A program made the position numbers and the translations under genes. The notes below the pieces were generated by a model that saw only the letters and a list, made by a program, of their open reading frames with translations, ran no database searches and was not told the origin of the DNA. 64,000 nucleotides of DNA. Source: Shinella granuli. Lineage in GTDB: Bacteria; Pseudomonadota; Alphaproteobacteria; Rhizobiales; Rhizobiaceae. The first letter of the stretch is position 1, and every line of letters begins with the position of its first letter. Below, piece after piece: positions 46,807 through 64,000 of the stretch. Location of the stretch: contig NZ_SLVX01000001.1 of assembly GCF_004341885.1 (NCBI RefSeq), positions 248,001 to 312,000 of the forward strand, given 5' to 3'.

Positions 46807-47912
46807 CGCGGGTGCCTCAATCTGGGGTTCGCGACGATCGCGAGGATGTCGGCGAACATGTTGAGGAAGATGTAGAAGGCGGCGAAGATCAGGCCGCAGG
46901 CCTGCACGACGGGCATGTCACGCACCGTCACGGCGTCGACCATGTACTGGCCCATGCCGGGATAGACGAACACCACCTCCACGACGACGACGCCGACCAC
47001 GAGATAGGCGAGGTTGAGCGCGATGACGTTGATGACCGGGGCGACGGCGTTCGGCGCCGCATGCTTGGCGATGATGCGCAGGCTGGAGAGGCCCTTGAGT
47101 TCCGCCGTTTCCACATAGGCCGAGGACATGACGTTGAGGATCGCCGCCCGCGTCATGCGCATCATGTGGGCGAGCACGACGAGGACGAGGGTGGCGGTCG
47201 GCAGGGCGATGGCCGAGAGGCGCTGGCCGATGGTCATCGAGTCATAGACCGTCGCCGGGAAGGTCGCGATGCCCAATTGCACGGCGAAGAACAGGATCAG
47301 GAGATAGCCGACGAAGAATTCCGGCAGCGAGATCGCCGCCAGCGAGATGACGTTGATGATCTTGTCGGGCAGGCGGTTCCTGTATTGCACCGCGAGCATG
47401 CCGAGGCCGACCGCCAGCGGCACCGAGATGATCGCCGCGAAGAAGGCGAGGAACAGCGAATTGCCGAGGCGCTTGCCGATCTGTTCGCTGACCGAGTTCT
47501 TCGACGCCCAGGAATTGCCGAAGTCGCCCTGGATCGCGCCGCCGAGCCACTTGAAGTAACGCGTGGTGGCGGGCTGGTCGAGACCGAGGTCCTTGCGGAT
47601 GTTCTCCACCGCCTGCGGCGTTGCGGACTGGCCGAGATAGGTCGTGGCGAAATCGCCCGGCAGGGCTTCCACGCCCCCGAAGATCATCAGGGACACGGCG
47701 AAGAGCAAGGCCACGCTGAGCGCGAGGCGTTGCAGGATGAGCGCAACCAGGGGGCTGCTCTTGCTGAATTTCGCCCAGAACGAAGGCGTGCCCTCGATCA
47801 CGGGGGTTCCAGTGGACGCAACCGACCCGGCGGCGCCGGCAGACTGCGGGACTTCACCCGCAGCCGCCTTTGCCGTCAGCTCCGGACCGTGCGCCGGTCC
47901 GCCGCCGGTCAT
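46803..47912 (-). CDS. Peptide-type ABC transporter permease (DppB family)
   Basis: A 369-residue permease with an unusually long, Ala/Gly/Pro-rich cytosolic N-terminus (about 65 residues) before helix 1, then the DppB-type core (LGLDQPATTRYFKWLGGAIQGDFG, shortened here) and EAA-like loop ETAELKGLSSLRIIAKHAAPN. The ATG at 47912 overlaps the stop of the binding-protein gene in TGATG; a GTG at 47927 would add five residues. Confidence 0.87.
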   Translation of the reverse strand: MTGGGPAHGPELTAKAAAGEVPQSAGAAGSVASTGTPVIEGTPSFWAKFSKSSPLVALILQRLALSVALLFAVSLMIFGGVEALPGDFATTYLGQSATPQAVENIRKDLGLDQPATTRYFKWLGGAIQGDFGNSWASKNSVSEQIGKRLGNSLFLAFFAAIISVPLAVGLGMLAVQYRNRLPDKIINVISLAAISLPEFFVGYLLILFFAVQLGIATFPATVYDSMTIGQRLSAIALPTATLVLVVLAHMMRMTRAAILNVMSSAYVETAELKGLSSLRIIAKHAAPNAVAPVINVIALNLAYLVVGVVVVEVVFVYPGMGQYMVDAVTVRDMPVVQACGLIFAAFYIFLNMFADILAIVANPRLRHPR

Positions 47913-49501: not shown

Positions 49502-49779
49502 TCCCCTGTTCCCTTTTGCTGGCCCATTAAGTGGGCATTTGTCGTTATGATTGGCAGAATTTCTGTTTTTCGCCTCTAAGGCAACCTTACAGCCGGCGAT
49601 TTTTGCCGGCGGCAGTGCATTCCCGTCTTCCGAAAGCCTCCTCCCTGCGCCGCGATGCGGCTCGTTTTCCCATAAATTAGCCACGCACAAGCTATATGTA
49701 ACGCCCTAAATTATCTATTTCTGCCACAAGCGGAGCTTATGGAAGAATGCGGATTGCGCCCGATGCAGGGGCGCGCTCC

Positions 49780-50562
49780 TCATCGTCCCTTCCAGACGGG
49801 ATCGCGTTTTTCCGCGAAGGCGCGGGCGCCTTCGAGCTGGTCCTCGCTGGAATAGAGAATGTCGACCGTGCGGAACTGCCGCCGGGTGATCTTGTTCATG
49901 GTCGTCTGGAAGGTCTCGCCCTCGGCGGCGCGCACCACTTCCTTGATGGCGGCGTAGACGAGCGGCGGGCCGCTTTCGAGCAGGCGCGCCAGCTCCCAGG
50001 CCCGGTCCAGCAGCCTGTCGGCCGGCAGGATCTCGTTGACGAAGCCCCAGCGGTGCGCCTCCTGCACGTCTAGCCAGCGGCCGGTGAGCAGCATGTCCAT
50101 GGCGATGTGATAGGGGATGCGCTTCGGCAGCTTGATCGAGGCGGCATCGGCCACCGTGCCGGAGCGGATTTCCGGCAGCGCGAAGGTCGCGTGTTCGGCG
50201 GCGAGGATGAGGTCGGTGGAAAGCGCGATCTCGAGGCCGCCGCCGCAGCAGATGCCGTTGACGGCCGCGATGATCGGCTTGTTGAGGTCGCGCAGCTCCT
50301 GCATGCCGCCGAAACCGCCGACACCGTAGTCGCCATCGACCGCGTCGCCCGCGGCAGCGGCCTTCAGGTCCCATCCCGGACAGAAGAATTTTTCCCCCGC
50401 GCCGGTGATGATGGCGACGCGCAGGCTTTCGTCATCGCGGAAATCGGCGAAGATCTTGCCCATGATGCGGCTGGTCGCAAGGTCGATGGCGTTCGCCTTG
50501 GGGCGATCGATGGTGACTTCCAGGATGCCGCCTTCGCGGCGCTGTCTTATCGGTCCGGTCAT
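49780..50562 (-). CDS. caiD: Enoyl-CoA hydratase/isomerase, CaiD-like (carnitinyl-CoA dehydratase)
   Basis: A 260-residue crotonase-fold enzyme. The oxyanion hole segments are FFCPGWDLKAAAAGD and NGICCGGGLEIALSTDLI; a conserved Glu follows in FALPEIRSGTV. The closest function I recall is CaiD, which hydrates crotonobetainyl-CoA to carnitinyl-CoA. It overlaps the ligase gene by 4 bp and is the last gene of the carnitine-type operon. Assignment to this substrate rests on both resemblance and neighbours. Confidence 0.75.
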   Translation of the reverse strand: MTGPIRQRREGGILEVTIDRPKANAIDLATSRIMGKIFADFRDDESLRVAIITGAGEKFFCPGWDLKAAAAGDAVDGDYGVGGFGGMQELRDLNKPIIAAVNGICCGGGLEIALSTDLILAAEHATFALPEIRSGTVADAASIKLPKRIPYHIAMDMLLTGRWLDVQEAHRWGFVNEILPADRLLDRAWELARLLESGPPLVYAAIKEVVRAAEGETFQTTMNKITRRQFRTVDILYSSEDQLEGARAFAEKRDPVWKGR

Positions 50563-52619
50563 GGGTTCTTCCTCAGACGGATCAGCGCGTCGGCCGCGAC
50601 GACACCGTCGCCTTCCGGCAGCACCATTATGGGATTAACGTCCAGTTCTTCGACTATTGAAGCGTTTGAAACGACATAGGATGCCGCTGATGCGACGGCG
50701 GCGACGAGAGCATCGATATCGCCCTTCGGACCGCCGCGATAGCCGCCCAGCAGTTTTGCGATATTCAGGCCGGAGATCGCCTCGCGGATCGTCCTTTCGT
50801 CCGTCGGCAGGGTCAGGATCGCGGAATCTTCGAGCAGTTCGACGAGGATGCCGCCCGCGCCGATCGTCAGGACGGGGCCGGCGACCGGATCGCGCATGGC
50901 GCCGACGATGAGCTCGGCGACCGGTTTGCCCACCATCTTTTCGACGAGGAAGCCGGCGGCGACGCCGGCCATGGCGTTCGCGGCCTCCAGCACCGCCTCG
51001 CGGTTCGCGAGATTGAGCTTCACCGCCCCCGCCTCGGTCTTGTGCGCGACGCCAAGGCCCTTGAGCACGACCGGGAAGCCGAGCTCTTCGGCGGCGTCCG
51101 CGGCGGCCGCCGCCGTCTCGGCGGAAACCCCCTTCGGGACCGGCAGGCCATGGGCGGCGAGCGCCTGCTTGGCCGCGTGCTCGGTGAGGGTGACGGGCGC
51201 GCCTTCGCCGGCGGCGGCCTTGAGAAGCGGGGCGGATTGCGGTTTGGCCCAGGCCTCGCCGATGCCGGCGGCGGCATCGGCGGCGGCGAGCGCCTCCTCG
51301 ATGCCGTAGAAGGGCACGACGCCGTTCCGCATCAGCATCTCGGCGGTCTCCTCCGGCATGTTTTCCGCCATGCTGGCGACGATGCCGGCATTCGCGCCGG
51401 AGGTTTTCGCGGCGTCGATGACGGCGTGGCAGGTGGTGATCCAATCCGCCGCATCGCAGCGGTCGAGGCGGGGGAAATCGAGCACGACGAGGTTGAGGCC
51501 GTAGCCGCCCTGCATCATCGTCGTGAAGGCTTCGGTCTGCTTCTCGCGGTTGCCCCAGACGAAGGTGTGGTAGTCGAGCGGGTTGGAGATCGTCACCATC
51601 TGGCCGAGCGTTTCGCGCAGCGGCTGGCGCTGGAAATCTTCGAGCGCGCGGTAGTTCACCTTCCGCTTCACCCCGGCATCGGCCATCAGCGAGGCCTCGC
51701 CCCCCGAGCAGCTCATCGAGGAGATGTCGTGGTTGGGCAGGGGGCCGGCGACATGCAGCAGCTTCAGCGTCTCCAGAAGCTCCGGCAGCGTCTCGACGCG
51801 GCCGATGCCGAGGCGGGCGAGGAGCGCCGAAGAGACGGCGTCGTTGCCGGCAAGCGAGGCGGTGTGCGAGACCGTCGCAAGCTGCGCCTGTTCCGACTTG
51901 CCGACCTTCAGCGTGACGACCGGCTTCTTCAGGTCGCGCGCGCGCTGGCCGAGGCGTTCCAGCGCTTCGAGGCTGTCGAAGCCCTCGATATGGAGGCCGA
52001 CGGCGGTGACACGCGGGTCTTCGAGGACCGCGCAGGCGAGGTCGGCAAGGCCTGTCTGGGCCTGGTTGCCGGCGGTCAGGATATAGGCGAGCGGCAGGCC
52101 GCGCTGCTGCATGGAGATGTTGCAGGCGATGTTGGACGACTGGGTGAGGACGGCGACGCCCTTTTCGATGCGCAGCATGCCGTGCTGGTCCGGCCAGAGC
52201 AGCGCGCCGTCCAGCATGTTGATGAAGCCGTAGCAGTTCGGCCCGAGGATCGGCATGTCGCCGGCCGCGTCCACCAGCGCCTTCTGCAGGTCGTCGCCGT
52301 CGGAAAGTTCGCTGACGGCCTCGCGGAAACCGGAGGCGTAGCAGACGGCCCCGCCTGCGCCGCGGGCAGAGAGGTCGCGGATGATGCCGATGGTCAGCTC
52401 GCGGTTGACGCCGATGAAGGAGGCATCCGGTGCGCCCGGCAGGTCGGCGACGGAGCGGTAGCATTTGCGGCCGAGGATTTCGTCCTCGCGCGGGTGAACG
52501 GGCCAGATTTCGCCGGAAAAGCCCATCTTGTCGCATTGGTAGATGACCCGGCGGGCTTCCTTGCCGCCGAAGACGGCGATGGATTTCGGGCGGATGAGGC
52601 GGTCGAGGGAGCGGGTCAC
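50559..52619 (-). CDS. Acyl-CoA synthetase, ADP-forming type (candidate butyrobetaine/carnitine:CoA ligase)
   Basis: A 686-residue protein with a CoA-binding domain (SIAVFGGKEARRVIYQ), succinyl-CoA-ligase-like domain with the phospho-His motif VSHTASLAGND, and a C-terminal ATP-grasp domain (from about 470). There is no AMP-binding domain, so the reaction is ADP-forming. In this operon it would activate gamma-butyrobetaine, crotonobetaine or carnitine. The GTG at 52619 is chosen as start; it abuts a palindromic repeat (52625 on), so much of its leader is repeat DNA and no good ribosome site is visible. Confidence 0.75.
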   Translation of the reverse strand: MTRSLDRLIRPKSIAVFGGKEARRVIYQCDKMGFSGEIWPVHPREDEILGRKCYRSVADLPGAPDASFIGVNRELTIGIIRDLSARGAGGAVCYASGFREAVSELSDGDDLQKALVDAAGDMPILGPNCYGFINMLDGALLWPDQHGMLRIEKGVAVLTQSSNIACNISMQQRGLPLAYILTAGNQAQTGLADLACAVLEDPRVTAVGLHIEGFDSLEALERLGQRARDLKKPVVTLKVGKSEQAQLATVSHTASLAGNDAVSSALLARLGIGRVETLPELLETLKLLHVAGPLPNHDISSMSCSGGEASLMADAGVKRKVNYRALEDFQRQPLRETLGQMVTISNPLDYHTFVWGNREKQTEAFTTMMQGGYGLNLVVLDFPRLDRCDAADWITTCHAVIDAAKTSGANAGIVASMAENMPEETAEMLMRNGVVPFYGIEEALAAADAAAGIGEAWAKPQSAPLLKAAAGEGAPVTLTEHAAKQALAAHGLPVPKGVSAETAAAAADAAEELGFPVVLKGLGVAHKTEAGAVKLNLANREAVLEAANAMAGVAAGFLVEKMVGKPVAELIVGAMRDPVAGPVLTIGAGGILVELLEDSAILTLPTDERTIREAISGLNIAKLLGGYRGGPKGDIDALVAAVASAASYVVSNASIVEELDVNPIMVLPEGDGVVAADALIRLRKNP

Positions 52620-52624
52620 GAGGA

Positions 52625-52780
52625 TACCCCCCTCTGCCCTGCCGGGCATCTCCCCCTCAAGGGGGGAGATTGGATGGGGGACCGTTTCACCCACCGCCGG
52701 CGTTGCCGATCAGGCGAGGTTTTCGCCTCCTGCCGATCTCCTCCCTTGAGGGGGAGATGCCCGGCAGGGCAGAGGGGGGT
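52625..52780. repeat. Paired palindromic repeat element, copy 2
   Basis: TACCCCCCTCTGCCCTGCC at the left is answered by GGCAGGGCAGAGGGGGGT at the right, each half also holding a CCCCCTCAAGGGGGG-type hairpin. It lies between the acyl-CoA dehydrogenase and ligase genes and forms the leader of the latter. Confidence 0.8.
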
Positions 52781-52803
52781 GATGCGGGCCACGCCTGCCA
52801 TCC

Positions 52804-53964
52804 TCACGCCCCCAGCGGCCTGAGCAGGTCGCGGCTGATGATGTGCCGCTGGATTTCCGACGTGCCGTCCCAGATGCGCTCGACACGCGCATCGCGCCAG
52901 AAGCGGGCGAGGGGCAGGTCGTCCATCAGGCCCATGCCGCCAAAGATCTGGATCGCCTCGTCGGTGACGCGGGCGAGCATTTCCGTGGCGTAGACCTTTG
53001 CCGAGGCGATCTCGCGGTTCGACGGCAGGCCCTGGTCGAGGCGCCAGGCGGCCGACAGCGTCAGAAGGTCGGCGGCGTCGATCTCGGTGATCATGTCGGC
53101 GAGCTTGAAGGAGACGCCCTGGTTGGCGCCGATCGGCTTGCCGAACTGCTTTCGCTCGGCGGCGTAGTTGAGCGCGTAGTCGAAGGCGCGGCGGGCGCGG
53201 CCGACGGAGGTGGCGGCGACCGTCAGGCGCGTCGCGTAGAGCCAGTCGTTGGCGATGTCGAAACCCTTGTGCACCTCGCCGAGGATCTGGGCGGAGGGCA
53301 GGCGGCATTCGTCGAAATTGAGGATGCAGTTCTTGTAGCCGCGGTGCGAGACGGAATTGTAGCCGTCGCGGATCTCGAAGCCCGGCGTGCCGCGGTCGAC
53401 GAGGAAGCAGGTGATCAGCTTCTTCTTGCCGCGCGGCGTGTCCTCCTCGCCGGTGGCGATGAAGACGATGACGAAATCGGCGATGTTGGCGTGGCTGATG
53501 AAGTGTTTGGTGCCGTTGACCACCCAGTCGTCGCCGTCCTTGCGGGCGAAACATTTCATGCCGCGCACGTCCGAGCCGGCATCCGGCTCGGTCATGGCGA
53601 GCGCGTCGAATTTCTCGCCGCTGACGGCGGGCAGCAGGTATTTTTCACGCTGCTCGTCGTTGCAGGCCATCAGGATGCCGGAGGGGCGGCCGAAGAAGAC
53701 GGTCAGCGCCATGGAGCCGCGGCCGAGCTCGCGCTCGACGAGGGTGAAGGAGGTGTGGTCGAGACCGGCGCCGCCCACTTCCTCCGGCATGTTGCAGCCG
53801 AAGAAGCCGATCTCCTTGCACTTGCGGGCGATCTCCTGGCCGAGTTCCGGCGGCACATGGCCGGTGCGCTCGACCTCGTTTTCGTGCGGATAGATTTCCG
53901 TTTCGACGAAGGCGCGGACCGTGTCCACGATCATCTGCTGTTCGTCGGTCAATGCGAAATTCAT
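52804..53964 (-). CDS. Acyl-CoA dehydrogenase (candidate butyrobetainyl-CoA dehydrogenase)
   Basis: A 386-residue flavoenzyme with the three ACAD domains: helical N-terminus, FAD/substrate motif AMTEPDAGSDVRGMKC, and C-terminal FGKPIGANQGVSFKLADM and IFGGMGLMDD. The segment normally holding the catalytic Glu (xYEGTSxIQR) reads RIWDGTSEIQRH, so Asp366 replaces it. In this operon it would make crotonobetainyl-CoA from butyrobetainyl-CoA, or serve as CaiA-like reductase. Start ATG at 53964. Confidence 0.82.
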   Translation of the reverse strand: MNFALTDEQQMIVDTVRAFVETEIYPHENEVERTGHVPPELGQEIARKCKEIGFFGCNMPEEVGGAGLDHTSFTLVERELGRGSMALTVFFGRPSGILMACNDEQREKYLLPAVSGEKFDALAMTEPDAGSDVRGMKCFARKDGDDWVVNGTKHFISHANIADFVIVFIATGEEDTPRGKKKLITCFLVDRGTPGFEIRDGYNSVSHRGYKNCILNFDECRLPSAQILGEVHKGFDIANDWLYATRLTVAATSVGRARRAFDYALNYAAERKQFGKPIGANQGVSFKLADMITEIDAADLLTLSAAWRLDQGLPSNREIASAKVYATEMLARVTDEAIQIFGGMGLMDDLPLARFWRDARVERIWDGTSEIQRHIISRDLLRPLGA

Positions 53965-54008
53965 GGAAAAGTCCTCCCGGTATTTCTTTTACGGGAGGCG
54001 CGTGTGGC

Positions 54009-54167
54009 TACCCCCCTCTGCCCTGCCGGGCATCTCCCCCTCAAGGGGGGAGATCGGTTGTGGCTTGCTCGTCGCTTCCCTCGAACCGCCGCCGTATGGG
54101 CGGCAGGCTTGCCCCCTGCCGATCTCCCCCCTTGAGGGGGAGATGCCCGGCAGGGCAGAGGGGGGTG
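54009..54167. repeat. Paired palindromic repeat element, copy 3
   Basis: Same arms as copy 2 (CCCCCCTCTGCCCTGCCGGG facing CCCGGCAGGGCAGAGGGGGG), between the acyl-CoA dehydrogenase and the fused carnitine dehydrogenase genes. About 60 bp of unrelated sequence separates the halves. Confidence 0.8.
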
Positions 54168-54180
54168 GCGGCTCGCGCCG

Positions 54181-55674
54181 TCAGTTCTTTCTTTGCCCGA
54201 CGCTGCGGCCTGCGCCGTCCGGCTTCGGCAGCCCGGCATGGGCTTCGGCGATCGGCGCGATCTTCGCCAGCACCTCGGCGGGCGCGTCGACGCTCTTGCC
54301 GGCCTTCGAATCGACATGCAGCACCATCTGCTCGGCCGTCGCGATGACGTCGCCCGTCGCCGCGTCGTGGATGCGGGTGAAGTAGTGCATGCGCTTGTTG
54401 TCGAAGGAGAGCAACTGGAGCGTCGTGTAGAGCGCCTGGCCGAGCTTGGCCTCGCCGAGATGGCGGATATGGGTCTCCACGGTGTAGTAGCTGTGGCCGG
54501 CCTCGACATAGGTGAAGTCGACGCCGACCAGCCGCAGCAGCGCGTCGGTCGTGTCGCCGAAGAGCTGGAGATAGCGGTGCTCGGTCATGTGGCCGTTGTA
54601 GTCGACCCAGGCGGCGTTGACCTTGGTGTCGACGAGGCGCAGCGGCTCGGTGGCGGAGACCTCGACCTTCGCCTTGCCGGCCTTCGCCCAGAGATGCGCC
54701 TCGAACTCGGCGAGCAGCTTGCCCGAACCCCAGCCGCGGCCTTCGTCGCCTGCCTTCAGCGCGTGCATGATGCCGACGAGGTTCTGGTCGCGGATGCGTT
54801 CCAGCTCGCGGATGCCGCGCGCGCCGGACTGGGCGTCCGACTGGCCGGCGATCTTTTCGACGAGTTCGTCGTCGAGGTCGACGACGTCGGTCAGCTTCGT
54901 CCAGGGCCAGGAGAGGCAGGGGCCGAACTGGGCGAGGAAGTGGCGCATGCCCGCTTCGCCGCCGGCGATGCGGTAGGTCTCGAACATGCCCATCTGCGCC
55001 CAGCGCATGCCGAACGAATAGCGGATCACGTCGTCGAGCGTCTCGGTGTCGCAGATGTCGTCCTTGATGAGCCAGAGGCCCTCGCGCCAGACGGCTTCCA
55101 GCAGGCGGTCGCCGACGAAGGCCTCGATCTCCTTGTTGATGATCACGCCCTTCATGCCGATCGGCGCGAGCTTGGCCCTGGCGTCTTCCAAGACGGCGCG
55201 CGACGTCTTCTGACCGCCGACGAGTTCGGCGAGCGGCAGCAGGTAGACGGGATTGTAGGGGTGCGCGACGAACAGGCGCTCGGGATGCTTCATGTCGCGC
55301 TGGAGGTCCGTCGGCATCAGGCCGGACGTCGAGGAGCCGATGAGGGCGTCGGGCTTTGCCGCCGCGTCGATCTTCGTCAGCACGCCGCGTTTCAGCTCCA
55401 GCCGCTCGGGCACGCTTTCCTGAATCCAGTCAGCGTCTTGCACGGCGTCTTCAAGGCTCTTGCAGAAGGTGATTTTTCCCTTCGGCGGCAGCGGGGCCAT
55501 GGTGAGCATGCCATAGGCGCGCTCGGCATTGGCCATGACCTCGCCGATGATGCGCTCGGCTTCCGGATGCGGATCGAAGATGTTCACGTCGATGCCGGCC
55601 AGCGCGAAGCGGGCGACCCATGCGCCGCCGATGACGCCGCCGCCGACACAGGCTGCCTTGTTGATGGTGGTCAT
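54181..55674 (-). CDS. cdhAB: L-carnitine 3-dehydrogenase fused to betainyl-CoA thioesterase (CdhA-CdhB)
   Basis: A 497-residue bifunctional protein. Residues 1-320 form a 3-hydroxyacyl-CoA-dehydrogenase-type NAD enzyme (VGGGVIGGAWVARFALAG; HPYNPVYLLPL), oxidising L-carnitine to 3-dehydrocarnitine. Residues about 340-480 form a hotdog thioesterase with the active Asp in WVDYNGHM, expected to release glycine betaine from betainyl-CoA. Such fusions are known in rhizobial carnitine dehydrogenases, whereas Pseudomonas has separate cdhA and cdhB. The start at 55674 has GAAGG 11 bases upstream. Copies of the palindromic repeat flank it on both sides. Confidence 0.88.
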   Translation of the reverse strand: MTTINKAACVGGGVIGGAWVARFALAGIDVNIFDPHPEAERIIGEVMANAERAYGMLTMAPLPPKGKITFCKSLEDAVQDADWIQESVPERLELKRGVLTKIDAAAKPDALIGSSTSGLMPTDLQRDMKHPERLFVAHPYNPVYLLPLAELVGGQKTSRAVLEDARAKLAPIGMKGVIINKEIEAFVGDRLLEAVWREGLWLIKDDICDTETLDDVIRYSFGMRWAQMGMFETYRIAGGEAGMRHFLAQFGPCLSWPWTKLTDVVDLDDELVEKIAGQSDAQSGARGIRELERIRDQNLVGIMHALKAGDEGRGWGSGKLLAEFEAHLWAKAGKAKVEVSATEPLRLVDTKVNAAWVDYNGHMTEHRYLQLFGDTTDALLRLVGVDFTYVEAGHSYYTVETHIRHLGEAKLGQALYTTLQLLSFDNKRMHYFTRIHDAATGDVIATAEQMVLHVDSKAGKSVDAPAEVLAKIAPIAEAHAGLPKPDGAGRSVGQRKN

Positions 55675-55713
55675 AGAGATGCTGCCTTCATAACTCTTGG
55701 TGTCCAGATGCGG

Positions 55714-55869
55714 CACCCCCCTCTGCCCTGCCGGGCATCTCCCCCTCAAGGGGGGAGATCGGATGGGGAGATGCCTTGCCCGCTACAGACGTTGCGGTTG
55801 AGACAAGGAACTTGCTTCTTGCCGATCTCCCCCTTGAGGGGGAGATGCCCGGCAGGGCAGAGGGGGGTA
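55714..55869. repeat. Paired palindromic repeat element, copy 4
   Basis: Same element as copies 2 and 3 between cdhAB and cdhC; left arm begins CACCCCCCTCTGCCC, right arm ends GGGCAGAGGGGGGT. Confidence 0.8.
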
Positions 55870-55899
55870 AACGCGTTGCGCCCTCGTGCCTCGTTCCCG

Positions 55900-56814
55900 T
55901 CAGCCGCGCGGTGCCCGCTTCGTAAGCTTCAGCTTCTCGCGCACCTCTGCCGGGCCGATGACCCGGGCCCCCATGCTCTCGATGATGTTGACCGCCTTGT
56001 CGACGAGCTGCGCATTGGTGGCGAGCTGGCCCTTGCCGACATAGAGGTTGTCCTCCAGGCCGACGCGGACATTGCCGCCGGCAAGCACCGCCGCGGCCGG
56101 ATAGGCCATGGCGTTGCGGCCGATGGAGAAGGCCGAGAAGGTCCAGTTCGAGGGCACGTTGTTGACCATCGCCATGAAGGTGTTGAGGTCGTCGGGCGCG
56201 CCCCACGGAATGCCCATGCAGAGCTGGATGAGCACCGGATCCTCGATGACGCCTTCCTCTACGAGCTGCTTGGCGAACCAGAGATGGCCGGTGTCGAAGG
56301 CCTCGATCTCCGGACGCACGCCGAGATCGGTCATCATCCGGCCCATCGCGCGCAGCATGGACGGCGTGTTGGTCATCACGTAGTCGCCGAGCGAGAAGTT
56401 CATCGTGCCGCAATCGAGCGTACAGATTTCCGGCAGGCATTCGGCGACGTGGGAGACGCGCTCCGTCGCGCCGGCCATGTCGGTGCCGTTGGGATTGAGC
56501 GGCAGCGGCTGCTCGGTGTTGCCGAAGATCATGTCGCCGCCCATGCCGGCGGTGAGGTTCAGCACCACGTCGACTTCCGCGTCGCGGATGCGCTCGGTCA
56601 CTTCACGGTAGAGGTCGTTGCGGCGGCTCGGCGCGCCGGTTTCCGGATCGCGCACATGGCAGTGCACGACGGCGGCGCCGGCCTTGGCGGCCTCGATCGC
56701 CGATTCGGCGATCTCTCTCGGCGAGCGCGGCACATGGGGGGATTTGCCGGCGGTGTCGCCGGAGCCGGTGACGGCGCAGGTGATGAAAACGTCGCGGTTC
56801 ATCGCTAGGGGCAT
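55900..56814 (-). CDS. cdhC: Dehydrocarnitine cleavage enzyme CdhC (BKACE family)
   Basis: A 304-residue TIM-barrel enzyme of the beta-keto acid cleavage family (DUF849). The zinc motif HCHVRDPETG (His-x-His) is present at about residue 48, and GNTEQPLPLNPNG lies in the substrate region. It swaps the acyl group of 3-dehydrocarnitine with acetyl-CoA, giving betainyl-CoA and acetoacetate. The ATG at 56814 has GGGAGA seven bases upstream. It heads the carnitine operon and is divergent from the AraC-type regulator. Confidence 0.87.
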   Translation of the reverse strand: MPLAMNRDVFITCAVTGSGDTAGKSPHVPRSPREIAESAIEAAKAGAAVVHCHVRDPETGAPSRRNDLYREVTERIRDAEVDVVLNLTAGMGGDMIFGNTEQPLPLNPNGTDMAGATERVSHVAECLPEICTLDCGTMNFSLGDYVMTNTPSMLRAMGRMMTDLGVRPEIEAFDTGHLWFAKQLVEEGVIEDPVLIQLCMGIPWGAPDDLNTFMAMVNNVPSNWTFSAFSIGRNAMAYPAAAVLAGGNVRVGLEDNLYVGKGQLATNAQLVDKAVNIIESMGARVIGPAEVREKLKLTKRAPRG

Positions 56815-56928
56815 TGTCGTTCTCCCAGTATTCTCGTTGAAGCCATTACGAGCCAAGAGAAGGCGCAGTGCTTTCACTTTTCGGATCCATCCTTGACAAT
56901 TCGGGAGACGGGATCACAGGATCGCCGC

Positions 56929-57903
56929 ATGCTGGATCCCTCCTCCGAGACACTCGACATCGATATTCTCGTCCTGCCCGAGACGAACCTCATCCTCGTC
57001 GCCTCGGTCATCGAGCCCCTGCGCGCCGCCAACCGCATCTCCGGCCAGGACCTCTACCGCTGGCGGATTTTTTCGCCCGACGGCCTGGCGGTCGAAACGC
57101 GCAGTCGCATCCCCGTGCCCGTGGACGGTCCGTTCCGGCCGGAGCGGGAGACCCAGCCGCTTTTCGTGCTGTCGAGCTATCAATGGCAGATGAGTGCGAC
57201 GCCTTTGTTGCGCCGCCAGCTCTCGCAGACCGCCCGCCACCGCATCGCCATGGCCGGCATCGAATCGGGTAGCTGGCTGCTTGCCGAGGCGAGCCTGCTC
57301 GACGGCCATTCCGTAACGATCCACTGGGAGGACATGGAAGAATTCGCCTCCGCCTATCCGCAGATCGACGTCGAGCGGCAGCGCTACGTCATCGACGGCA
57401 AGCGCATCACCACCGGCGGCTCCCTGCCGACGCTCGACCTGATGCTGGAGATCATCCGCCGCCGGCAGGGCTATTCGCTGGCGCTCGAAGTCTCGCGGCT
57501 CTTCATCTACGAGCACGAGCGCACCGGCGGCCTGCTGCAGGTGCCGGCGCTCGGCAACATGCGCGTTGCCGACCAGCGCGTCAGCCAGGCGGTGCGGCTG
57601 ATGGAGGAGACGGTGGACGTGCCGCTCACCCTGACGCGGCTTGCAAAGCGCGTCGGCGTCAGCGCGCGCCATCTCCAGGACCTGTTCCAGGAGACGATGG
57701 GCGTCGCGCCGCACCAGCACTATCTTGCGCTCCGCCTCAATGCCGCCCGGCGCAAGGTCATCGAGACGAGGGCCGAGTTCGCCGACATCGCGGCGCTCAC
57801 CGGCTTCAACTCCTCCTCCGCCTTCTCGCGCAGCTACCGGGCGCACTATCACGAGAGCCCGACGGAAACGCGCCGGCGGCTGAGGGCCGGGGCGAAGGGC
57901 TAG
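56929..57903 (+). CDS. cdhR: GlxA/CdhR-type AraC-family activator of carnitine catabolism
   Basis: A 324-residue regulator: N-terminal DJ-1/PfpI-like amidotransferase domain (residues 10-190, GGSLPTLDLMLEII near its end) and C-terminal double HTH AraC domain (GVSARHLQDLFQETMG; FNSSSAFSRSYRAHY). This architecture and position match CdhR, which activates carnitine genes in Pseudomonas. The ATG at 56929 is preferred; a TTG at 56893 has no ribosome site. Its stop overlaps the stop of the convergent LysR gene in CTAG. Confidence 0.8.
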   Translation: MLDPSSETLDIDILVLPETNLILVASVIEPLRAANRISGQDLYRWRIFSPDGLAVETRSRIPVPVDGPFRPERETQPLFVLSSYQWQMSATPLLRRQLSQTARHRIAMAGIESGSWLLAEASLLDGHSVTIHWEDMEEFASAYPQIDVERQRYVIDGKRITTGGSLPTLDLMLEIIRRRQGYSLALEVSRLFIYEHERTGGLLQVPALGNMRVADQRVSQAVRLMEETVDVPLTLTRLAKRVGVSARHLQDLFQETMGVAPHQHYLALRLNAARRKVIETRAEFADIAALTGFNSSSAFSRSYRAHYHESPTETRRRLRAGAKG

Positions 57904-59063
57904 GTTTTCGTCAGGAGCGCGAGCATCGTCTCGGCGGCCTTGCGGGAAAGCGCGTCGCGCGGCCAGACGAGGCTCAGCGATTGCTGGTAGGCGTCATCGA
58001 GCGGCAGCAGCGTCGGCGGCGGATTGATGTTGGCGACGGAGTGCTCCGGCAGCACCGAGAGATGGCCGTGGTCGAGCACGAGGTTGATGATGACGGGGAT
58101 CGAATCCACCTCGACCAGCGTCAGGCGGGTGCGCTCGGCGGGGGAAAGCGTCGCTTCGAGGAAGCGGTCGGTCATCTGCCGCAGGCCGCTGCGCGGGCTC
58201 GGCACGGCGATCGGGTACTGGCATAGCAGCGTGGCGAAATCCTGCTTTTCGGCGCTGTCCAGCCTGCGCGGGCCGGCAAGCGCCAGCCGGGAACGGCCGA
58301 TCAGGCTGCCTTCGAATTCGGCGGGGTAGCGGTCGGTGTCGAGCAGGATCAGGTCGAAGCGGCGGTTTTTCAGGCCCGAGACCAGTTCGTCCGCCGTGGT
58401 GGAGGAGAGGAAGAGCGGCTGGCGGGGCCGCGCCGCGCGCCACGCCACGGCGAGGCGGGCGAGCATGGCGGCGATCTCGCTTTCATGGCCGAAGGGGATG
58501 ATCGCGCCGAGCCGCCAGGTGGCGGCGCTGCGGCGGAACCGTTCGGCCGAGGCGGTGGAGAGGGACTCCCAGGCCGCGCCGATGCGTTCCGCGAGCGCCA
58601 GCGCTTCCAGGCCCGCGGGCGTGCAGGCGATGCCCGTCGCCGAACGCGCGAGGAGCTTGCAGCCGATCGCCGCCTCCAGATGGCTGAGCTGGCGGGTGAG
58701 CTGCGGCTGGCCGAGGCCGAGGGTCTTGGCGGCGCCGTTGATGCTGCCGGCGCGGGCCGTGGCGGCGAAGCGGGCGAGGGCGGCGAGCGAGACGGCCGGC
58801 CTCGTTTCCCCGCCTTTGCCGAGGGCGGCCAGTGCGGCGGCCGCTTCGGCGATTTCGGCAAAGCGCGGCAGGCGAGCCTCGGCATCGAGCGTCGGAACGA
58901 GCGCCTGCCCGTCGCGCCGCACCAGCGGCACCGAGAGCACGGCTTCGACCCGGCGCAGCGCCGCGCTGGCGCTGGAGGCGGGGCGCCCTTCCGCGGTCGC
59001 CGCCCTGCGGATGCCGCGTTCTTCGAGAATGCTGTGCACAAGGCGAAGCGTGGATAAATCCAC
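57900..59063 (-). CDS. LysR-family regulator with two tandem HTH domains
   Basis: A 387-residue protein, about 90 residues longer than a usual LTTR. Residues 3-60 look like a degenerate LysR HTH (DLSTLRLVHSILEERGIRRAA, cut here), and residues 91-150 are a clear second one (SINGAAKTLGLGQPQLTRQL). The LysR substrate domain follows. The GTG at 59063 has AAGGAG seven bases upstream. It is divergent from the lyase-hydantoinase operon, with a palindromic T-N11-A site between, so it should regulate that operon. Confidence 0.82.
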   Translation of the reverse strand: MDLSTLRLVHSILEERGIRRAATAEGRPASSASAALRRVEAVLSVPLVRRDGQALVPTLDAEARLPRFAEIAEAAAALAALGKGGETRPAVSLAALARFAATARAGSINGAAKTLGLGQPQLTRQLSHLEAAIGCKLLARSATGIACTPAGLEALALAERIGAAWESLSTASAERFRRSAATWRLGAIIPFGHESEIAAMLARLAVAWRAARPRQPLFLSSTTADELVSGLKNRRFDLILLDTDRYPAEFEGSLIGRSRLALAGPRRLDSAEKQDFATLLCQYPIAVPSPRSGLRQMTDRFLEATLSPAERTRLTLVEVDSIPVIINLVLDHGHLSVLPEHSVANINPPPTLLPLDDAYQQSLSLVWPRDALSRKAAETMLALLTKT

Positions 59064-59093
59064 GGGCGGCTCCTTCGGGTTTTCCCAACTGTT

Positions 59094-59112
59094 CGGTTCA
59101 TAGCATGAACCG
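59094..59112. promoter_or_regulatory. LysR-type operator in the divergent promoter
   Basis: CGGTTCAT and ATGAACCG are perfect eight-base arms around AGC, and the core TTCATAGCATGAA is a T-N11-A box. It lies 31 bp from the regulator start and 114 bp from the lyase start. Confidence 0.65.
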
Positions 59113-59225
59113 TACGGATTTTGGGATATGGGTTCGGGCCGCGTTCCGCATAACATCCGCATTCGGTTTATGCATTCCGGACAGGCGCTTTTGCCGGAAT
59201 TGCTGTTCGAGACAGGCTTTTTGAA

Positions 59226-60764
59226 ATGCTCGCTTCCGCCGACACGCTCTATCTGACCGGCCAGCCGCTCGATTTCGCGACGCTGGAGGCGATCGGCACG
59301 GCCGCGCGGCGGCCGGTGGCCTGCGAGATCGGCATGGGGCGTGTCGGCGCGTCGCGCCGCGTCATCACCGACCGCCTCGCCACGGGCCTGCCGATCTACG
59401 GCGCGAATACCGGCGTCGGCTCTATGAAGGACAAGCTCTGGACGGCCGACGACCTCATCGAGTTCAACAACAGCCTGGTGCGGGCCCACCATTTCGGCAC
59501 CGGCGAACCGTTCACGCTGCCGATCGTGCGCAAGGCGATGGGCATTCGTGTCAACACCGCGCTCGGCGGCTATTCCGGCTGCAGCCCGGAGCTGATCGAC
59601 GCCCTGCTCGGGCTGCTCGAACGGGATGTCGTGCCCGTCGTGCGCCGGCATGGCTCGATGGGTTGCGCCGATATCGGCCTGATGGGCCAGATCGCGGCGG
59701 TCCTGACCGGCGAGGGCGAGGCCTGGTACGGCGGCGAACGCCTGCCGGCCCTGGAGGCGCTGAAGCGCGCCGGCCTCCAGCCCTATCGCATGCAGCCGCG
59801 CGATGCGCTGGCCGCCCTCAGCGTCAATGCCATCTCGCATGCCGCGGCGGCCAATGTGGTGCGCGAGGCGGCGATGGCGATCCGCAATCTCATGGTGACG
59901 GGCGTTCTCTCCTCGCTGGCGCTCGGCGCCTCGGCCGATCCCTGGCGCGTGGCGGCACGGCTCTCGGCCCATGGCGAGGCGCTTGCCGGCACCTGGTTCG
60001 AGGCGCAGGCCGCCTCCGGCCATTGGCCGAAACCGTCGGCGATCCACGATCCGCTCAGCCTGCGCATGACCGCGCAGGTCTTCGGCGCCTGCCTCGATAC
60101 GCTGATGAACGCCGCCGAGCGCATCGTCGAGGCGACGGCGCAGTCCGACGACAATCCGGTCGTGCTCGACAACCATGTCATGGCGTCCGGCGGCTCGCTG
60201 CCGCTCTCGACGACGCTCTATGTCGAGGCGGCGCAGACGGGTTTTGCCCATCTTGCCCGCAACGTGCTGAACCGCTGCGTGCTGCTTGCCAACGGCGTGC
60301 GCCGCAACCTGCCGGTCAACCTCGTGGCGCCCGGCGAGACGGCGACGGGCTTCGGGCCGCTGCTGAAGCTTGCGGTGGAGCTCTACATGCGCATCCAGTC
60401 GCTGGCGGTGCCGATCTCGGCGCAGTCCATCGTCGTCGCCGGCGGGCTGGAAGAGGAGGCGACCTTCCTGCCGCTGATCGTCGAGCGCATGGAGAGCCAG
60501 GTGCGGGACCTGCGCCAGCTCGCCGCCCTCGAAGCCATGCTCTCCGCCCAGGCGATCGACCTTGCCGGCGACAATGTCGAGGGCGTCGTCGCCATCGCCT
60601 ACCGGCGCACGCGGGCGATCAGCCCGTTCTACCGCAAGGACCGGCCGCTTTCCGCCGAGATCGAGGCACTCGACCGCGATCTTGCCAGCCCCGAGGCGCT
60701 TGCCGCCTTCGTCGAGGCCGCGCCCATGGCGCAATTCGACGCCTTCTTCGCCCTCACAGCCTGA
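59226..60764 (+). CDS. Aromatic-amino-acid-lyase fold enzyme lacking MIO triad; candidate ergothionase
   Basis: A 512-residue member of the HAL/PAL fold. Conserved parts include YGANTGVGS (Tyr58), NNSLVRAHHFGTG, DPLSLR, SDDNPVVLD and the C-terminal helices. The segment that carries the self-cyclising Ala-Ser-Gly in true lyases (GSVGASGDLAP) reads GSMGCADIGLMG: Cys147-Ala148-Asp149, so no MIO electrophile can form. Ergothionase, which eliminates trimethylamine from ergothioneine, is a HAL relative reported (from memory) to work without MIO. The hydantoinase, carbamoylase and DUF917 genes next to it fit the later steps of that pathway. Routine annotation would call it HutH, which I reject. No strong ribosome site precedes the ATG. 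Confidence 0.7.
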   Translation: MLASADTLYLTGQPLDFATLEAIGTAARRPVACEIGMGRVGASRRVITDRLATGLPIYGANTGVGSMKDKLWTADDLIEFNNSLVRAHHFGTGEPFTLPIVRKAMGIRVNTALGGYSGCSPELIDALLGLLERDVVPVVRRHGSMGCADIGLMGQIAAVLTGEGEAWYGGERLPALEALKRAGLQPYRMQPRDALAALSVNAISHAAAANVVREAAMAIRNLMVTGVLSSLALGASADPWRVAARLSAHGEALAGTWFEAQAASGHWPKPSAIHDPLSLRMTAQVFGACLDTLMNAAERIVEATAQSDDNPVVLDNHVMASGGSLPLSTTLYVEAAQTGFAHLARNVLNRCVLLANGVRRNLPVNLVAPGETATGFGPLLKLAVELYMRIQSLAVPISAQSIVVAGGLEEEATFLPLIVERMESQVRDLRQLAALEAMLSAQAIDLAGDNVEGVVAIAYRRTRAISPFYRKDRPLSAEIEALDRDLASPEALAAFVEAAPMAQFDAFFALTA

Positions 60765-60776
60765 CGGAGACAGACC

Positions 60777-62156
60777 ATGGCCGATTTCGATCTCGTCCTG
60801 AAAGGCACCGTGGTTCTGGCGGATCGTATCGTCGACGGCGGCCATGTCGCGGTGCGTGACGGCAAGGTGGCGCATGTCGGCCAGGGAGCCATGCCGGCGG
60901 CGAAGGAACGGCACGACCTTTCGGGCGCGCTGATCCTGCCCGGCGCGATCGACGCGCAGGTGCATTCGCTGTCGCAGAAGAGCCAGGAGGATTTCATCTG
61001 GTCGACGCGCTCGGCGGCGGCCGGCGGCGTCACCACCATCGTCGACATGCCCTATGACGAGGGCAATCTCGTGTCATCGGCGGAAGCGGTGCGGCGCAAG
61101 GTGGACCATGCCGGGCCGCAGGCGCGCGTCGATTTCGCGCTCTACGGCACGGTCGATCCGCAGGAGGGGCCGGCGCGGATCGGCGAAATGGTCGAGGCGG
61201 GTGTCGCGGCCTTCAAGTTCTCCACCTTCGGCACGGATCCGAAGCGCTTTCCGCGCATCCCGGCGGCACTCCTTGAGGATTGTTTCCGCGCCATCGCCCC
61301 GACCGGTCTGACGGCCGGCGTGCACAACGAGGACGACGAGGCGGTGCGCGCCGCGATCGCCCGGGTGAGGGCGGCCGGCATCACGGATTACCGCGCCCAT
61401 GGCCTGTCGCGCCCGCCGCTGACGGAGCTCATCGCCTCCAACCAGATCTACGAGACCGGCGCGGCAACCGGCTGCCCGGCCCATGTGGTGCATTGCTCGC
61501 TCGGCCGGGGCTACGAGATCGCTAGCGCCTATCGCGCGCAGGGTTTTCGGGCGACCATCGAGTGCTGCATCCACTACCTGACGCTCGACGAGGAGAACGA
61601 CGTCGCGCGGCTCGGCGGCAAGGCGAAGATCAATCCGCCGATCCGCCCGCGCGCCGAGGTCGAAAAGCTCTGGCGGCATGTCGCCGCGGGCAATGTGACG
61701 CTCGTTTCCACCGACCATGTGAGCTGGTCGGAGGACCGAAAGTCCAATCCGGACATGCTGGCCAACGCCTCCGGCGTGCCGGGGCTGGAGGTCATGGTGC
61801 CGCTCTTCGTCAAGGGCGCGCTGGAGCGCGGCATTCCGCTGACGCGGGCGGCCGAGCTGATGGCGCTGAACCCCGCCCGGCATTTCCGGCTCGATCATGT
61901 GAAGGGCGCGCTCGAAGCGGACAAGGACGCGGACATCACCGTGCTGACGCCCGAGCCCTATAGCTATGACGCGGCGGCGAGCGGCCACAACGTCGTCGGC
62001 TGGTCGCCCTATAACGGCATTCGCCTGCCGTGGCGCGTCTCGGCGACCTGGCTGCGCGGCAGGCTCGCCTTCGACGGCAAACAGGTGCTCGCCGAACCCG
62101 GTTCCGGCGCCTTCGTGCGCCCGTTGCCGACGCTCGTTTCCGCAGGTGGTCGCTGA
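60777..62156 (+). CDS. Hydantoinase/dihydropyrimidinase-like amidohydrolase
   Basis: A 459-residue cyclic amidase. Conserved metal-site parts are the Lys in AFKFSTFG (carboxylated in the family), His in GVHNED, His in HVVHCS and Asp in STDHVSW. The first metal motif, usually HxH in GxIDxHxH, reads DAQVHS, so the first His is replaced by Gln, suggesting one metal or an altered site. In the proposed pathway it opens hydantoin-5-propionate to N-carbamoylglutamate; the family also hydrolyses other hydantoins. It lies 12 bp after the lyase gene, and its stop overlaps the next ATG. Confidence 0.82.
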   Translation: MADFDLVLKGTVVLADRIVDGGHVAVRDGKVAHVGQGAMPAAKERHDLSGALILPGAIDAQVHSLSQKSQEDFIWSTRSAAAGGVTTIVDMPYDEGNLVSSAEAVRRKVDHAGPQARVDFALYGTVDPQEGPARIGEMVEAGVAAFKFSTFGTDPKRFPRIPAALLEDCFRAIAPTGLTAGVHNEDDEAVRAAIARVRAAGITDYRAHGLSRPPLTELIASNQIYETGAATGCPAHVVHCSLGRGYEIASAYRAQGFRATIECCIHYLTLDEENDVARLGGKAKINPPIRPRAEVEKLWRHVAAGNVTLVSTDHVSWSEDRKSNPDMLANASGVPGLEVMVPLFVKGALERGIPLTRAAELMALNPARHFRLDHVKGALEADKDADITVLTPEPYSYDAAASGHNVVGWSPYNGIRLPWRVSATWLRGRLAFDGKQVLAEPGSGAFVRPLPTLVSAGGR

Positions 62157-63442
62157 TGGCGGCGCCGCGAATCAATCTGCCGGTCGATCCCGCCCGCATA
62201 GAGGATGTGATCGACGGGCTTGCCCGGCTCACCGAGCCCGGCCGGCCCTACACACGGCGTGCCTTTACCGCTCTGTTCCCGGCGGGGCGGGATTTTCTTG
62301 ACCAGAGGTTTCGGGCGGCCGGGCTCGAAACGCGCATCGACGCCGCGGGCAATCTCATCGCCCGGCGGCCGGGCAGGAAACCGGGTCTCGGCACGATCAT
62401 GCTCGGTTCCCATTCCGATACGGTGCCGGATGGCGGGCGTTACGACGGCATTGCCGGCGTGGCGGTGGCGCTGGAAGTCGCCCGCGCCATTGCCGACCAG
62501 GGGATCGAACTCGACCATGACCTGGAGGTCGTCGATTTCCTTGCCGAGGAAGTGTCGATCTTCGGCGTCTCCTGCATCGGCAGCCGTGGCATGGCCGGCG
62601 TCCTGCCGGCGGACTGGCTGGCGCGCGAGAGCAGCGGCCTGACGCTGGAGCAGGGCATTCGCGATGCCGGCGGCGATCCGGCGCGCCTGCAGGCGGAGGC
62701 GCGCCGGGACATCGCGGCCTTCCTCGAACTGCATATCGAGCAGGGGCCGGTGCTGGAAACGGAGAAACTGGATATCGGCGTGGTGACGGCGATTTCAGGC
62801 ATCACGCGCATCGAGATCATCGTCGAGGGCCGGGCGGACCATGCCGGCACGACGCCGATGGGCGCGCGCGCCGATGCGCTGGCGGCCGCCGCGCGGCTGG
62901 TAACGGGCATCGAGGCGCTGGCGAAGTCGCTCTCGGAAGGGCCGGGGCATTTCACGGCGACCGTCGGCGAATTCTCCATCGCGCCGAACGCGGCCAATGT
63001 CGTGCCGTCGCGCGCGCGCCTGTTGATCGACGCGCGGGCCGAGCACCGCACCACGATGGATGTTTTTGCCGCCTCCGTCGAGCAGATGGCGGAGCAGCTC
63101 GCACGGGAGACCGGCACGCTCATCGCGCCGCCGCGCCGCCTCTCCGACAACATGCCGACGCCCGGCGATCCGCTGCTGCTCGATGTACTGGACGCAGCCT
63201 GCGAGATGGCCGGCGCGCGCCATCGCCGCATGGCCTCCGGCGCCGGGCATGACACGGCCTTCCTGGCGAAGGTGACGCGGGCGGCGATGATCTTCGTGCC
63301 CTGCCTCGGCGGGCGCAGCCATGCGCCGGAGGAGTTCGCCGAGACGGACGATATCGCGCTCGGCGCGGCGGTGCTTTTTAACGCGGTGATTCAACTGGAT
63401 AAGACATTGAGTCAGGAGGACGACCGATGGGCCGGATCTTAA
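62156..63442 (+). CDS. M20-family N-carbamoyl-amino-acid hydrolase (carbamoylase)
   Basis: A 428-residue binuclear metal amidase. Ligands seen: His and Asp in GSHSDTVPDGGRYDG, Glu pair in FLAEEVSIFG, His in ELHIEQG and His near the end in SGAGHDTAFLA. Substrate-binding GxxSHxPxE is present (GGRSHAPEEF). The group hydrolyses N-carbamoyl-L-amino acids, ureidoglycolate or beta-ureidopropionate; N-carbamoylglutamate is the expected substrate here. Starts in TGATG with the hydantoinase stop and overlaps the next gene by 16 bp. Confidence 0.85.
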   Translation: MAAPRINLPVDPARIEDVIDGLARLTEPGRPYTRRAFTALFPAGRDFLDQRFRAAGLETRIDAAGNLIARRPGRKPGLGTIMLGSHSDTVPDGGRYDGIAGVAVALEVARAIADQGIELDHDLEVVDFLAEEVSIFGVSCIGSRGMAGVLPADWLARESSGLTLEQGIRDAGGDPARLQAEARRDIAAFLELHIEQGPVLETEKLDIGVVTAISGITRIEIIVEGRADHAGTTPMGARADALAAAARLVTGIEALAKSLSEGPGHFTATVGEFSIAPNAANVVPSRARLLIDARAEHRTTMDVFAASVEQMAEQLARETGTLIAPPRRLSDNMPTPGDPLLLDVLDAACEMAGARHRRMASGAGHDTAFLAKVTRAAMIFVPCLGGRSHAPEEFAETDDIALGAAVLFNAVIQLDKTLSQEDDRWAGS

Positions 63443-64000
63443 AGGAAAAAGACGTCGAGGCGGCGGTCAAGGGCGGCTCGGTCTATGCCGCCGGCGGCGG
63501 GGGCTGGGCGGACCATGGCCGCATGCTCGGCTATGCCGCCGTCTCGATCGGCAAGCCGGAGCTGGTATCCATCGATGAATTGTCCGATGACGACTGGGTG
63601 GCGACCGCCGCCGCCATCGGCGCGCCGGCCTCGACCACGCCCTGGGAAATGCGCGGCGTCGATTATGTGAAGGCGGTGGAGCTTCTGCAGGACGCGCTCG
63701 GCGAGAAGGTCGCGGCGCTGATGGTCGGGCAGAACGGCAAGTCCTCGACGCTCAACGGCTGGCTGCCCGCGGCGATCCTCGGCACGAAGGTGCTCGACGC
63801 TGTCGGCGACATGCGGGCGCATCCGACCGGGGATATGGGGTCGATCGGCATGGCGGGCTCGCCCGAGCAGATGATCCAGACCGCCGTCGGAGGAAACCGC
63901 GACGAGAACCGCTATATCGAGCTCGTCGTGCGCGGCGCGACCGCGAAGGTCTCGCCGATCCTGCGCACGGCCTCCGACATGTCCGGCGGCTTCATCGCCT
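63427..64000 (+). CDS. DUF917-family protein (candidate thiohydantoin desulfurase), 3' end outside window
   Basis: The first 191 residues are visible: VEAAVKGGSVYAAGGGGWADHGRML is replaced here by its core VYAAGGGGWADHG, typical of the DUF917 N-terminus, followed by DDWVATAAAIGAP and MVGQNGKSSTLNGWLPAAILG-like segments. DUF917 proteins sit with hydantoinases; one member was reported (from memory) to desulfurate 3-(5-oxo-2-thioxoimidazolidin-4-yl)propionate in ergothioneine breakdown. The gene runs off the right edge; its start overlaps the carbamoylase gene by 16 bp, so it belongs to the same operon. Confidence 0.8.
   Translation, partial: MGRILKEKDVEAAVKGGSVYAAGGGGWADHGRMLGYAAVSIGKPELVSIDELSDDDWVATAAAIGAPASTTPWEMRGVDYVKAVELLQDALGEKVAALMVGQNGKSSTLNGWLPAAILGTKVLDAVGDMRAHPTGDMGSIGMAGSPEQMIQTAVGGNRDENRYIELVVRGATAKVSPILRTASDMSGGFIA

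Follow-up and report, generated by a model that had tools for sequence, protein, structure and literature searches.

Ergothioneine is a dietary antioxidant, and the breadth of its bacterial breakdown to trimethylamine is debated. In the ergothionase of Treponema, trimethylamine can reportedly leave without the 4-methylideneimidazole-5-one (MIO) group. Here, we describe a locus of the soil bacterium Shinella granuli, at the end of a window of 64,000 nucleotides (the whole stretch analyzed; contig NZ_SLVX01000001.1, positions 248,001–312,000) and in the adjoining part of the same contig, which from its gene content appears to be a complete five-gene operon for ergothioneine use: lyase, hydantoinase, carbamoylase, DUF917 protein, and hydratase. 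A 2026 paper describes ergothionase as lacking MIO and as confined to few genera, based on BLAST with one Burkholderia sequence, and warns of divergent homologues (PMC13405746). The pathway is already known, and the names ErtD and ErtE in NCBIfam suggest that someone has described it; as far as the literature was searched, the lyase clade, the regulator with two DNA-binding domains, and the upstream motif reported below are new. No paper on ergothioneine in Shinella, or on ergothioneine together with LysR, thiohydantoin degradation, or urocanate hydratase, was found in the open-licence literature.

Among the known systems closest to the Shinella locus, the ergothionase of Treponema denticola (6s7j/6s7q) and the lyase of a Burkholderia arboris cluster (L091) share with the window lyase the fold, the loss of the MIO tripeptide, a K-D pair after the active-site loop, S-x-N in place of N-G-T, and lysine 381; glutamate 409 is also common to the window lyase and the ergothionases, but is found in MIO lyases too. 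The lyases of Burkholderia and Paracoccus denitrificans carry an N-terminal leader that by eye resembles a secretion signal, and their genes lie downstream of an MFS transporter gene (Pfam MFS_1); the window lyase, in contrast, starts straight at the enzyme domain. The cluster of the S-methyl-ergothioneine type (NF058531/NF058532) in Agrobacterium tumefaciens (L093) encodes the same five enzyme types as the window, but with other desulfurase and hydratase subfamilies, a different lyase, and extra glutathione transferase and S/N-oxide reductase genes. This cluster (L093 5989–18673) holds the genes for the glutathione transferase, the molybdopterin S/N-oxide reductase, and a glycine betaine transporter; in its “hutH” the MIO stretch is deleted further (GS-G-Y---L), and similar lyases are found on Neorhizobium and Thalassospira plasmids (L109, L110). 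A hut operon (e.g., L022) resembles the window in its homologous lyase and hydratase, but its lyase is of the MIO type and by eye stands beside other hut-type genes, not beside a desulfurase, hydantoinase, and carbamoylase.

The initial annotation had recognized an MIO-less homologue of histidine ammonia-lyase (HAL), a hydantoinase, an M20 carbamoylase, and a DUF917 protein, tightly coupled on one strand, and proposed that they degrade ergothioneine. All four genes are present, with intergenic gaps of 12, −4, and −16 bp, and the thiourocanate hydratase that it expected past position 64,000 begins 690 bp beyond the window end, so that each predicted step has a gene and the four enzymes acting after the lyase exceed the curated NCBIfam cut-offs for ergothioneine use (table 1). 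Its start at 57,900 is the 3′ end of the LysR gene, and the operon proper starts at 59,226. The five-gene order was found again in loci of Shinella, Mycoplana, Rhizobium, and Ochrobactrum, and a lyase of at least 90% identity occurs in 17 of 21 sampled genomes of the window's genus, the remaining four having distant lyases only; this recurrence argues that the operon is not a chance arrangement. The window lyase and its counterpart in Shinella yambaruensis DSM 18801 share 99% identity.

Table 1. Features of the ergothioneine locus and its surroundings, in window numbering; positions in locus L004 are added for genes reaching past the window end
Feature	Position	Strand	Basis or remark
LysR-type regulator gene	57900..59063	−	Divergent from operon; Pfam HTH_1 in two stretches and LysR_substrate
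Inverted repeat GTTCGGTTCAT-AGC-ATGAACCGTAC	59091..59115		Between regulator and lyase; weaker candidate, arms differ among Shinella species
Conserved operator-like motif TTTTGGGATAT	59119..59129	+	Between regulator and lyase; several relatives have a palindromic TGGGATATCCCA core
Lyase without MIO, a predicted cytoplasmic ergothionase (would split ergothioneine into trimethylamine and thiourocanate)	59226..60764	+	Pfam Lyase_aromatic, 6s7j match, ASG loss, signature residues, trees, fold
Predicted hydantoin-5-propionate amidohydrolase (ErtD), hydantoinase-like	60777..62156	+	NF058538, 794 bits (cut-off 600)
Predicted N-carbamoyl-L-glutamate amidohydrolase (ErtE), M20 family carbamoylase	62153..63442	+	NF058540, 597 bits (cut-off 520)
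Predicted thiohydantoin desulfurase (DUF917, S-Me-THD fold)	63427..64518, past the window end at 64000 (L004 7427–8518)	+	NF058529, 603 bits (cut-off 440)
Predicted thiourocanate hydratase (HutU-like)	64690–66351 (L004 8690–10351)		NF058530, 1041 bits (cut-off 930)
176-residue helix-turn-helix (HTH) protein	66364–66894 (L004 10364–10894)		Open reading frame list; weak HTH matches
Carnitine/crotonobetaine-type catabolic island	44355–57903		Beside the ergothioneine operon

The lyase belongs to the aromatic amino acid lyase family (Pfam PF00221, 276 bits), and its best sequence match in the PDB is the T. denticola ergothionase 6s7j (182 bits), followed by a probable histidine ammonia-lyase (144 bits). 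An alignment of 62 lyases shows that the MIO-forming Ala-Ser-Gly is gone through a one-residue shortening, identical in 6s7j and in the lyases that accompany the clusters of Burkholderia and P. denitrificans; this shortening is not diagnostic alone, because other MIO-less lyases without an assigned substrate have it too. Lyases of this other kind (GSIGAGDL type, without the K-D signature) were seen in Alphaproteobacteria (L046, L049, L050, L119, L120, L122, and L123). Fourteen positions of the alignment are fixed in 11 ergothionase-side lyases and occur in fewer than 10% of 24 MIO lyases; they include K68, D69, S199, N201, D308, and K381.

Phylogenetic analysis placed the lyase on the side of the Treponema ergothionase and not with MIO-containing HAL or phenylalanine ammonia-lyase, the grouping that the initial annotation had named as a refutation. 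In a tree of 39 rows, drawn from the 62 aligned lyases by excluding 23 near-duplicates or cut rows, 14 window-type lyases form one clade (100/100), and a branch supported at 99/97 parts this clade together with the Treponema, Burkholderia, and Paracoccus enzymes from the other 22 rows, which are MIO lyases and six other MIO-less lyases. A second tree with more MIO-less lyases (31 rows) gave the same split at 95/90 and included the lyases of genomes G503, G524, and G723 in the window clade (100/100). The fold points the same way: searching the PDB with an AlphaFold model of the lyase (pLDDT 90.8), Foldseek ranked chains of 6s7j first to third (TM 0.89/0.92, root mean square deviation 2.0), followed by HAL structures (2.7–3.3). 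The R. alarense lyase gene (L020 1987–3693) shows an apparent in-frame insertion or duplication, and one internal TAG is reported for the lyase gene of G017 (L029).

From these families, and partly from the known pathway, we infer the following catalytic activities and intermediates. The MIO-less lyase would eliminate trimethylamine from ergothioneine to give thiourocanate; no MIO electrophile would be needed, because activation of the thioimidazole by acid/base residues would suffice for the trimethylammonium group to leave unaided. The hydratase of the HutU type, which like urocanase probably depends on NAD+, would add water to yield the thiohydantoin 3-(5-oxo-2-thioxoimidazolidin-4-yl)propionate, in which the DUF917 protein would swap sulfur for oxygen, giving sulfide and hydantoin-5-propionate. 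ErtD would open the ring to N-carbamoyl-L-glutamate, and ErtE would convert this to CO2, ammonia, and L-glutamate. We consider it highly probable that the operon encodes all steps of this route, which would turn ergothioneine into glutamate in the cytoplasm. As to the fate of the trimethylamine, the genome has one DmmA/HODM-alpha homologue, and the ten neighboring open reading frames that were scanned gave nothing informative.

A neighboring substrate that has to be weighed is S-methyl-ergothioneine, in which case the S-methylated compound would enter and methanethiol would leave at the DUF917 step. In Pfam, the fold family of DUF917 takes its name from S-methyl thiohydantoin desulfurase, and the lyase might accept either form of the sulfur substituent. 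The scores of the two enzymes handling the sulfur-bearing ring speak against this substrate: the window proteins, well over the cut-offs of the thio models, stay far below those of the S-methyl models (desulfurase 290 bits, cut-off 450; hydratase 729 bits, cut-off 880), and the control cluster of B. arboris behaves like the window (608 and 1048 bits on the thio models), whereas the control on A. tumefaciens pAtAF1/95 (L093) shows the opposite pattern, reaching 536 and 969 bits on the S-methyl models and failing the thio models. These models therefore do separate the two branches. Given the scores and the positive control cluster, the S-methyl branch was rejected, and we regard it as quite improbable. 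The ErtE candidate scores higher on NF009531, “Zn-dependent hydrolase” (664 bits, cut-off 486), than on its own model. Among the genomes sampled for the class and phylum searches, with three to five candidates scored in each, the hydratase model NF058530 is exceeded in 6 of 398 genomes of the phylum, at 1029–1061 bits, and the family is sharply bounded, because the next match falls to 720 bits; the desulfurase model NF058529 is exceeded in 5 of 385 genomes of the class.

Several points weigh against the ergothioneine route. The ErtD and ErtE models do not separate the thio from the S-methyl branch, because both are passed in A. tumefaciens L093 as well (784 and 576 bits). The lyase shares only about 30% identity with the enzymes of Treponema and of the Burkholderia cluster and forms a clade of its own, on a stem of 2.9 changes per column in the 39-row tree and about 1.5 in the more densely sampled 31-row tree; because branches are long and the Treponema row is oddly composed, the grouping with ergothionase is less sure than its support values say, and likely rather than certain. 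Foldseek E-values are nearly equal for ergothionase (5.5e-30) and HAL (6.6e-29), and the more divergent linked lyases differ at D69 (KE in G524, KS in G723). Among named NCBIfam models, the lyase scores best on one for histidine ammonia-lyase, at 220 bits (cut-off 524), with another at 214 (cut-offs 524–539); the Burkholderia and Paracoccus lyases fare no better. No dedicated transporter was identified in the operon. Finally, the lower genes and the regulator occur without a linked lyase of the window clade in Neorhizobium (L087), P. aminophilus (L089), Thalassospira (L090), and G383 (L100).

The low identity and the long stem mean that the lyase substrate could differ, and it might be a close relative of ergothioneine (the sulfonate, selenoneine, or another 2-thiohistidine betaine) feeding the same pathway. 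A lyase that had been retuned or exchanged would be expected to be less conserved than the enzymes below it, and in ten hand-picked linked loci, other Shinella and Rhizobium loci being excluded, mean identity to the window is 56% for the lyase, 79% for ErtD, 66% for ErtE, 83% for the desulfurase, and 84% for the hydratase, the hydratase being better conserved than the lyase in all ten. A title in the reference list of PMC13405746 also names an ergothioneine sulfonate pathway in Agrobacterium radiobacter. However, the lower enzymes match models for unsubstituted thiourocanate, and a sulfonate should not require a thiohydantoin desulfurase, which makes such a relative an unlikely substrate. Far less credible is ordinary histidine utilization or hydantoin use with paralogues of HAL and HutU, to which the HAL and urocanase families and a Rhizobium record naming an aromatic amino acid ammonia-lyase, an amidohydrolase, and a urocanate hydratase might point: the MIO site is missing, none of the later hut enzymes is among the operon's five genes, separate copies of hutH (C2:418455) and hutU (C2:415954) lie on another contig of the same genome, and the desulfurase would have no role. 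Histidine utilization was rejected on the loss of MIO and the hut genes elsewhere, and plain hydantoin use because the thiourocanate hydratase and desulfurase would stand idle. The initial annotation had supposed that standard annotation would file the operon under these two headings; this does not hold for four of the five enzymes, which NCBIfam would name, and does hold for the lyase, since no ergothionase model is among its NCBIfam matches and the Ert set gave none for either the lyase or the regulator.

The gene divergent from the operon encodes a regulator with the N-terminal winged helix-turn-helix (wHTH) and substrate-binding domain of the LysR type, to which a second wHTH has been added, so that two tandem wHTH domains (residues about 1–60 and 90–150) stand ahead of the ligand-binding domain. 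The gene probably starts at a GTG at 59,063, judging from the sequence, which has GAAGGA a short way before it, and from the alignment. Pfam HTH_1 matches twice in this protein and in all ten orthologues scanned, from operons with and without the lyase. An AlphaFold model (pLDDT 84.7, pTM 0.53) contains two complete wHTH units, at residues 2–79 and 91–178, whose mutual arrangement is unsure because of the low pTM. No paper title on a LysR protein with two DNA-binding domains was found in the open-licence literature, which is weak evidence of absence.

Two observations, co-occurrence and a conserved upstream motif, support the first proposal that this regulator is dedicated to the operon. With up to five candidates scored per genome, its profile matches 4 of 385 genomes of the class at E ≤ 1e-60; all four are among the five with a desulfurase over the cut-off, and the same four have a lyase of the window clade. 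Four draws would all fall within those five genomes by chance with P of about 6e-9, kinship ignored.

The motif has the form TTTGGGATAT(CCCAAA) and precedes most of these regulators as well as lyases remote from them. Of 19 related LysR genes, 15 have an exact copy of its core, TGGGATAT, upstream and in the same orientation, a count that is partly circular because the core was picked by eye from the same alignment. P. aminophilus and Thalassospira have one mismatch to it; P. denitrificans and G503 have two, which is no better than shuffles preserving base content only. In several loci the motif extends to a palindrome, TGGGATATCCC(A). A fairer test, though three of its cases are one genus, is given by the upstream regions of five further lyase genes of the window clade, examined afterwards, all of which contain the core: those of three genomes of one genus in which no adjacent regulator was found (L096–L098), of G503 (L154), whose regulator lies on a different contig, and of Rhizobium sp. 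SL42 (L055), where the regulator parts the lyase from the remaining operon genes. Neither of the two tested loci without this regulator (L091, L157) has a copy within one mismatch. The window form, TTTTGGGATAT, occurs three times in the 6.59 Mb genome, compared with one occurrence of the reversed pattern. The regulator would bind the site between the divergent genes and turn the operon on when the substrate or an intermediate is present.

The loci without a linked lyase of the window clade could be read as those of scavengers, but the pure form of this reading is weakened, because three of the four lyase-free plasmid records carry other MIO-less lyases. These lie elsewhere on the plasmids of Neorhizobium, P. 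aminophilus, and Thalassospira (the plasmids alone being searched), and none has the K-D signature; a search of the whole G383 genome found one lyase, of the MIO type, and its locus (L100) yielded no ErtE. In Rhizobium CC-CFT758 (L088) the lower genes are present, the desulfurase being spread over two reading frames, and the stretch yielded no regulator. The operons of L088 and L087 adjoin genes for an amino acid ABC transporter, a HutC-type regulator, and a monooxygenase (of the LLM flavin type in L088). The hosts of these two operons may be scavengers of thiourocanate.

Further genomes vary the entry step in other ways. G503 has lyase, desulfurase, and hydratase together, with regulator and ErtD (622 bits) on other contigs. 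G564 (L157 7562–12603) encodes the desulfurase and hydratase beside an MIO lyase (GSVGASGD) and lacks the regulator, suggesting 2-thiohistidine or another ammonia-releasing entry. G778, with a genome of 1.9 Mb, has a Burkholderia-type lyase (L117, G778:C58) and no desulfurase or ErtD match; it may only produce thiourocanate. We tentatively propose, as a possibility on balance doubtful, that the enzymes from thiourocanate to glutamate form a portable module under one two-wHTH LysR regulator reading a TTTGGGATATCCCAAA site, in which the entry enzyme alone is exchanged: a cytoplasmic MIO-less lyase, a secreted ergothionase, an MIO lyase (one genome), or none linked, the host then living on the thiourocanate of its neighbors. 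The regulator would in that case sense thiourocanate or the thiohydantoin, and not ergothioneine.

The surroundings of the operon are likewise partly conserved. The adjoining island encodes, nearest the LysR gene, a carnitine 3-dehydrogenase fused to a thioesterase (NF005716, 902 bits, cut-off 592), a beta-keto acid cleavage enzyme (BKACE), and an AraC regulator, whose best named model is GbdR (212 bits, under the cut-off of 480); further on follow an acyl-CoA dehydrogenase, an ATP-grasp CoA ligase, an enoyl-CoA hydratase, and a peptide-type ABC transporter. The carnitine dehydrogenase, cleavage enzyme, and AraC genes adjoin the operon in 16 of 38 loci (L006–L019, L021, L101), which are not all independent, because several G-handle genomes and named loci come from one and the same organism (e.g., L099/L019, L103/L020). 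Both the carnitine and the ergothioneine pathway handle trimethylammonium compounds.

On the far side, the 176-residue HTH protein adjoins the operon in five of ten other Shinella loci (L006–L015); with this distribution and its weak HTH matches, it was left out of the pathway. Hairpin repeat units of the CTCTCCCCGCAAGCGGGGAGAG type lie between the desulfurase and hydratase genes (L004 8500–8690), a gap that differs in length between Shinella species, and repeats of similar look, translated, flank the carnitine genes (window about 53900–56000).

The lyase clade of the window, at about 30% identity to the described enzymes, looks like a divergent homologue of the kind that the 2026 paper warns of, and would easily be called a histidine ammonia-lyase. 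The presence of two DNA-binding domains in a LysR protein is an oddity that can be tested, and combining the regulator profile with the motif and the desulfurase model offers a way to find such operons.

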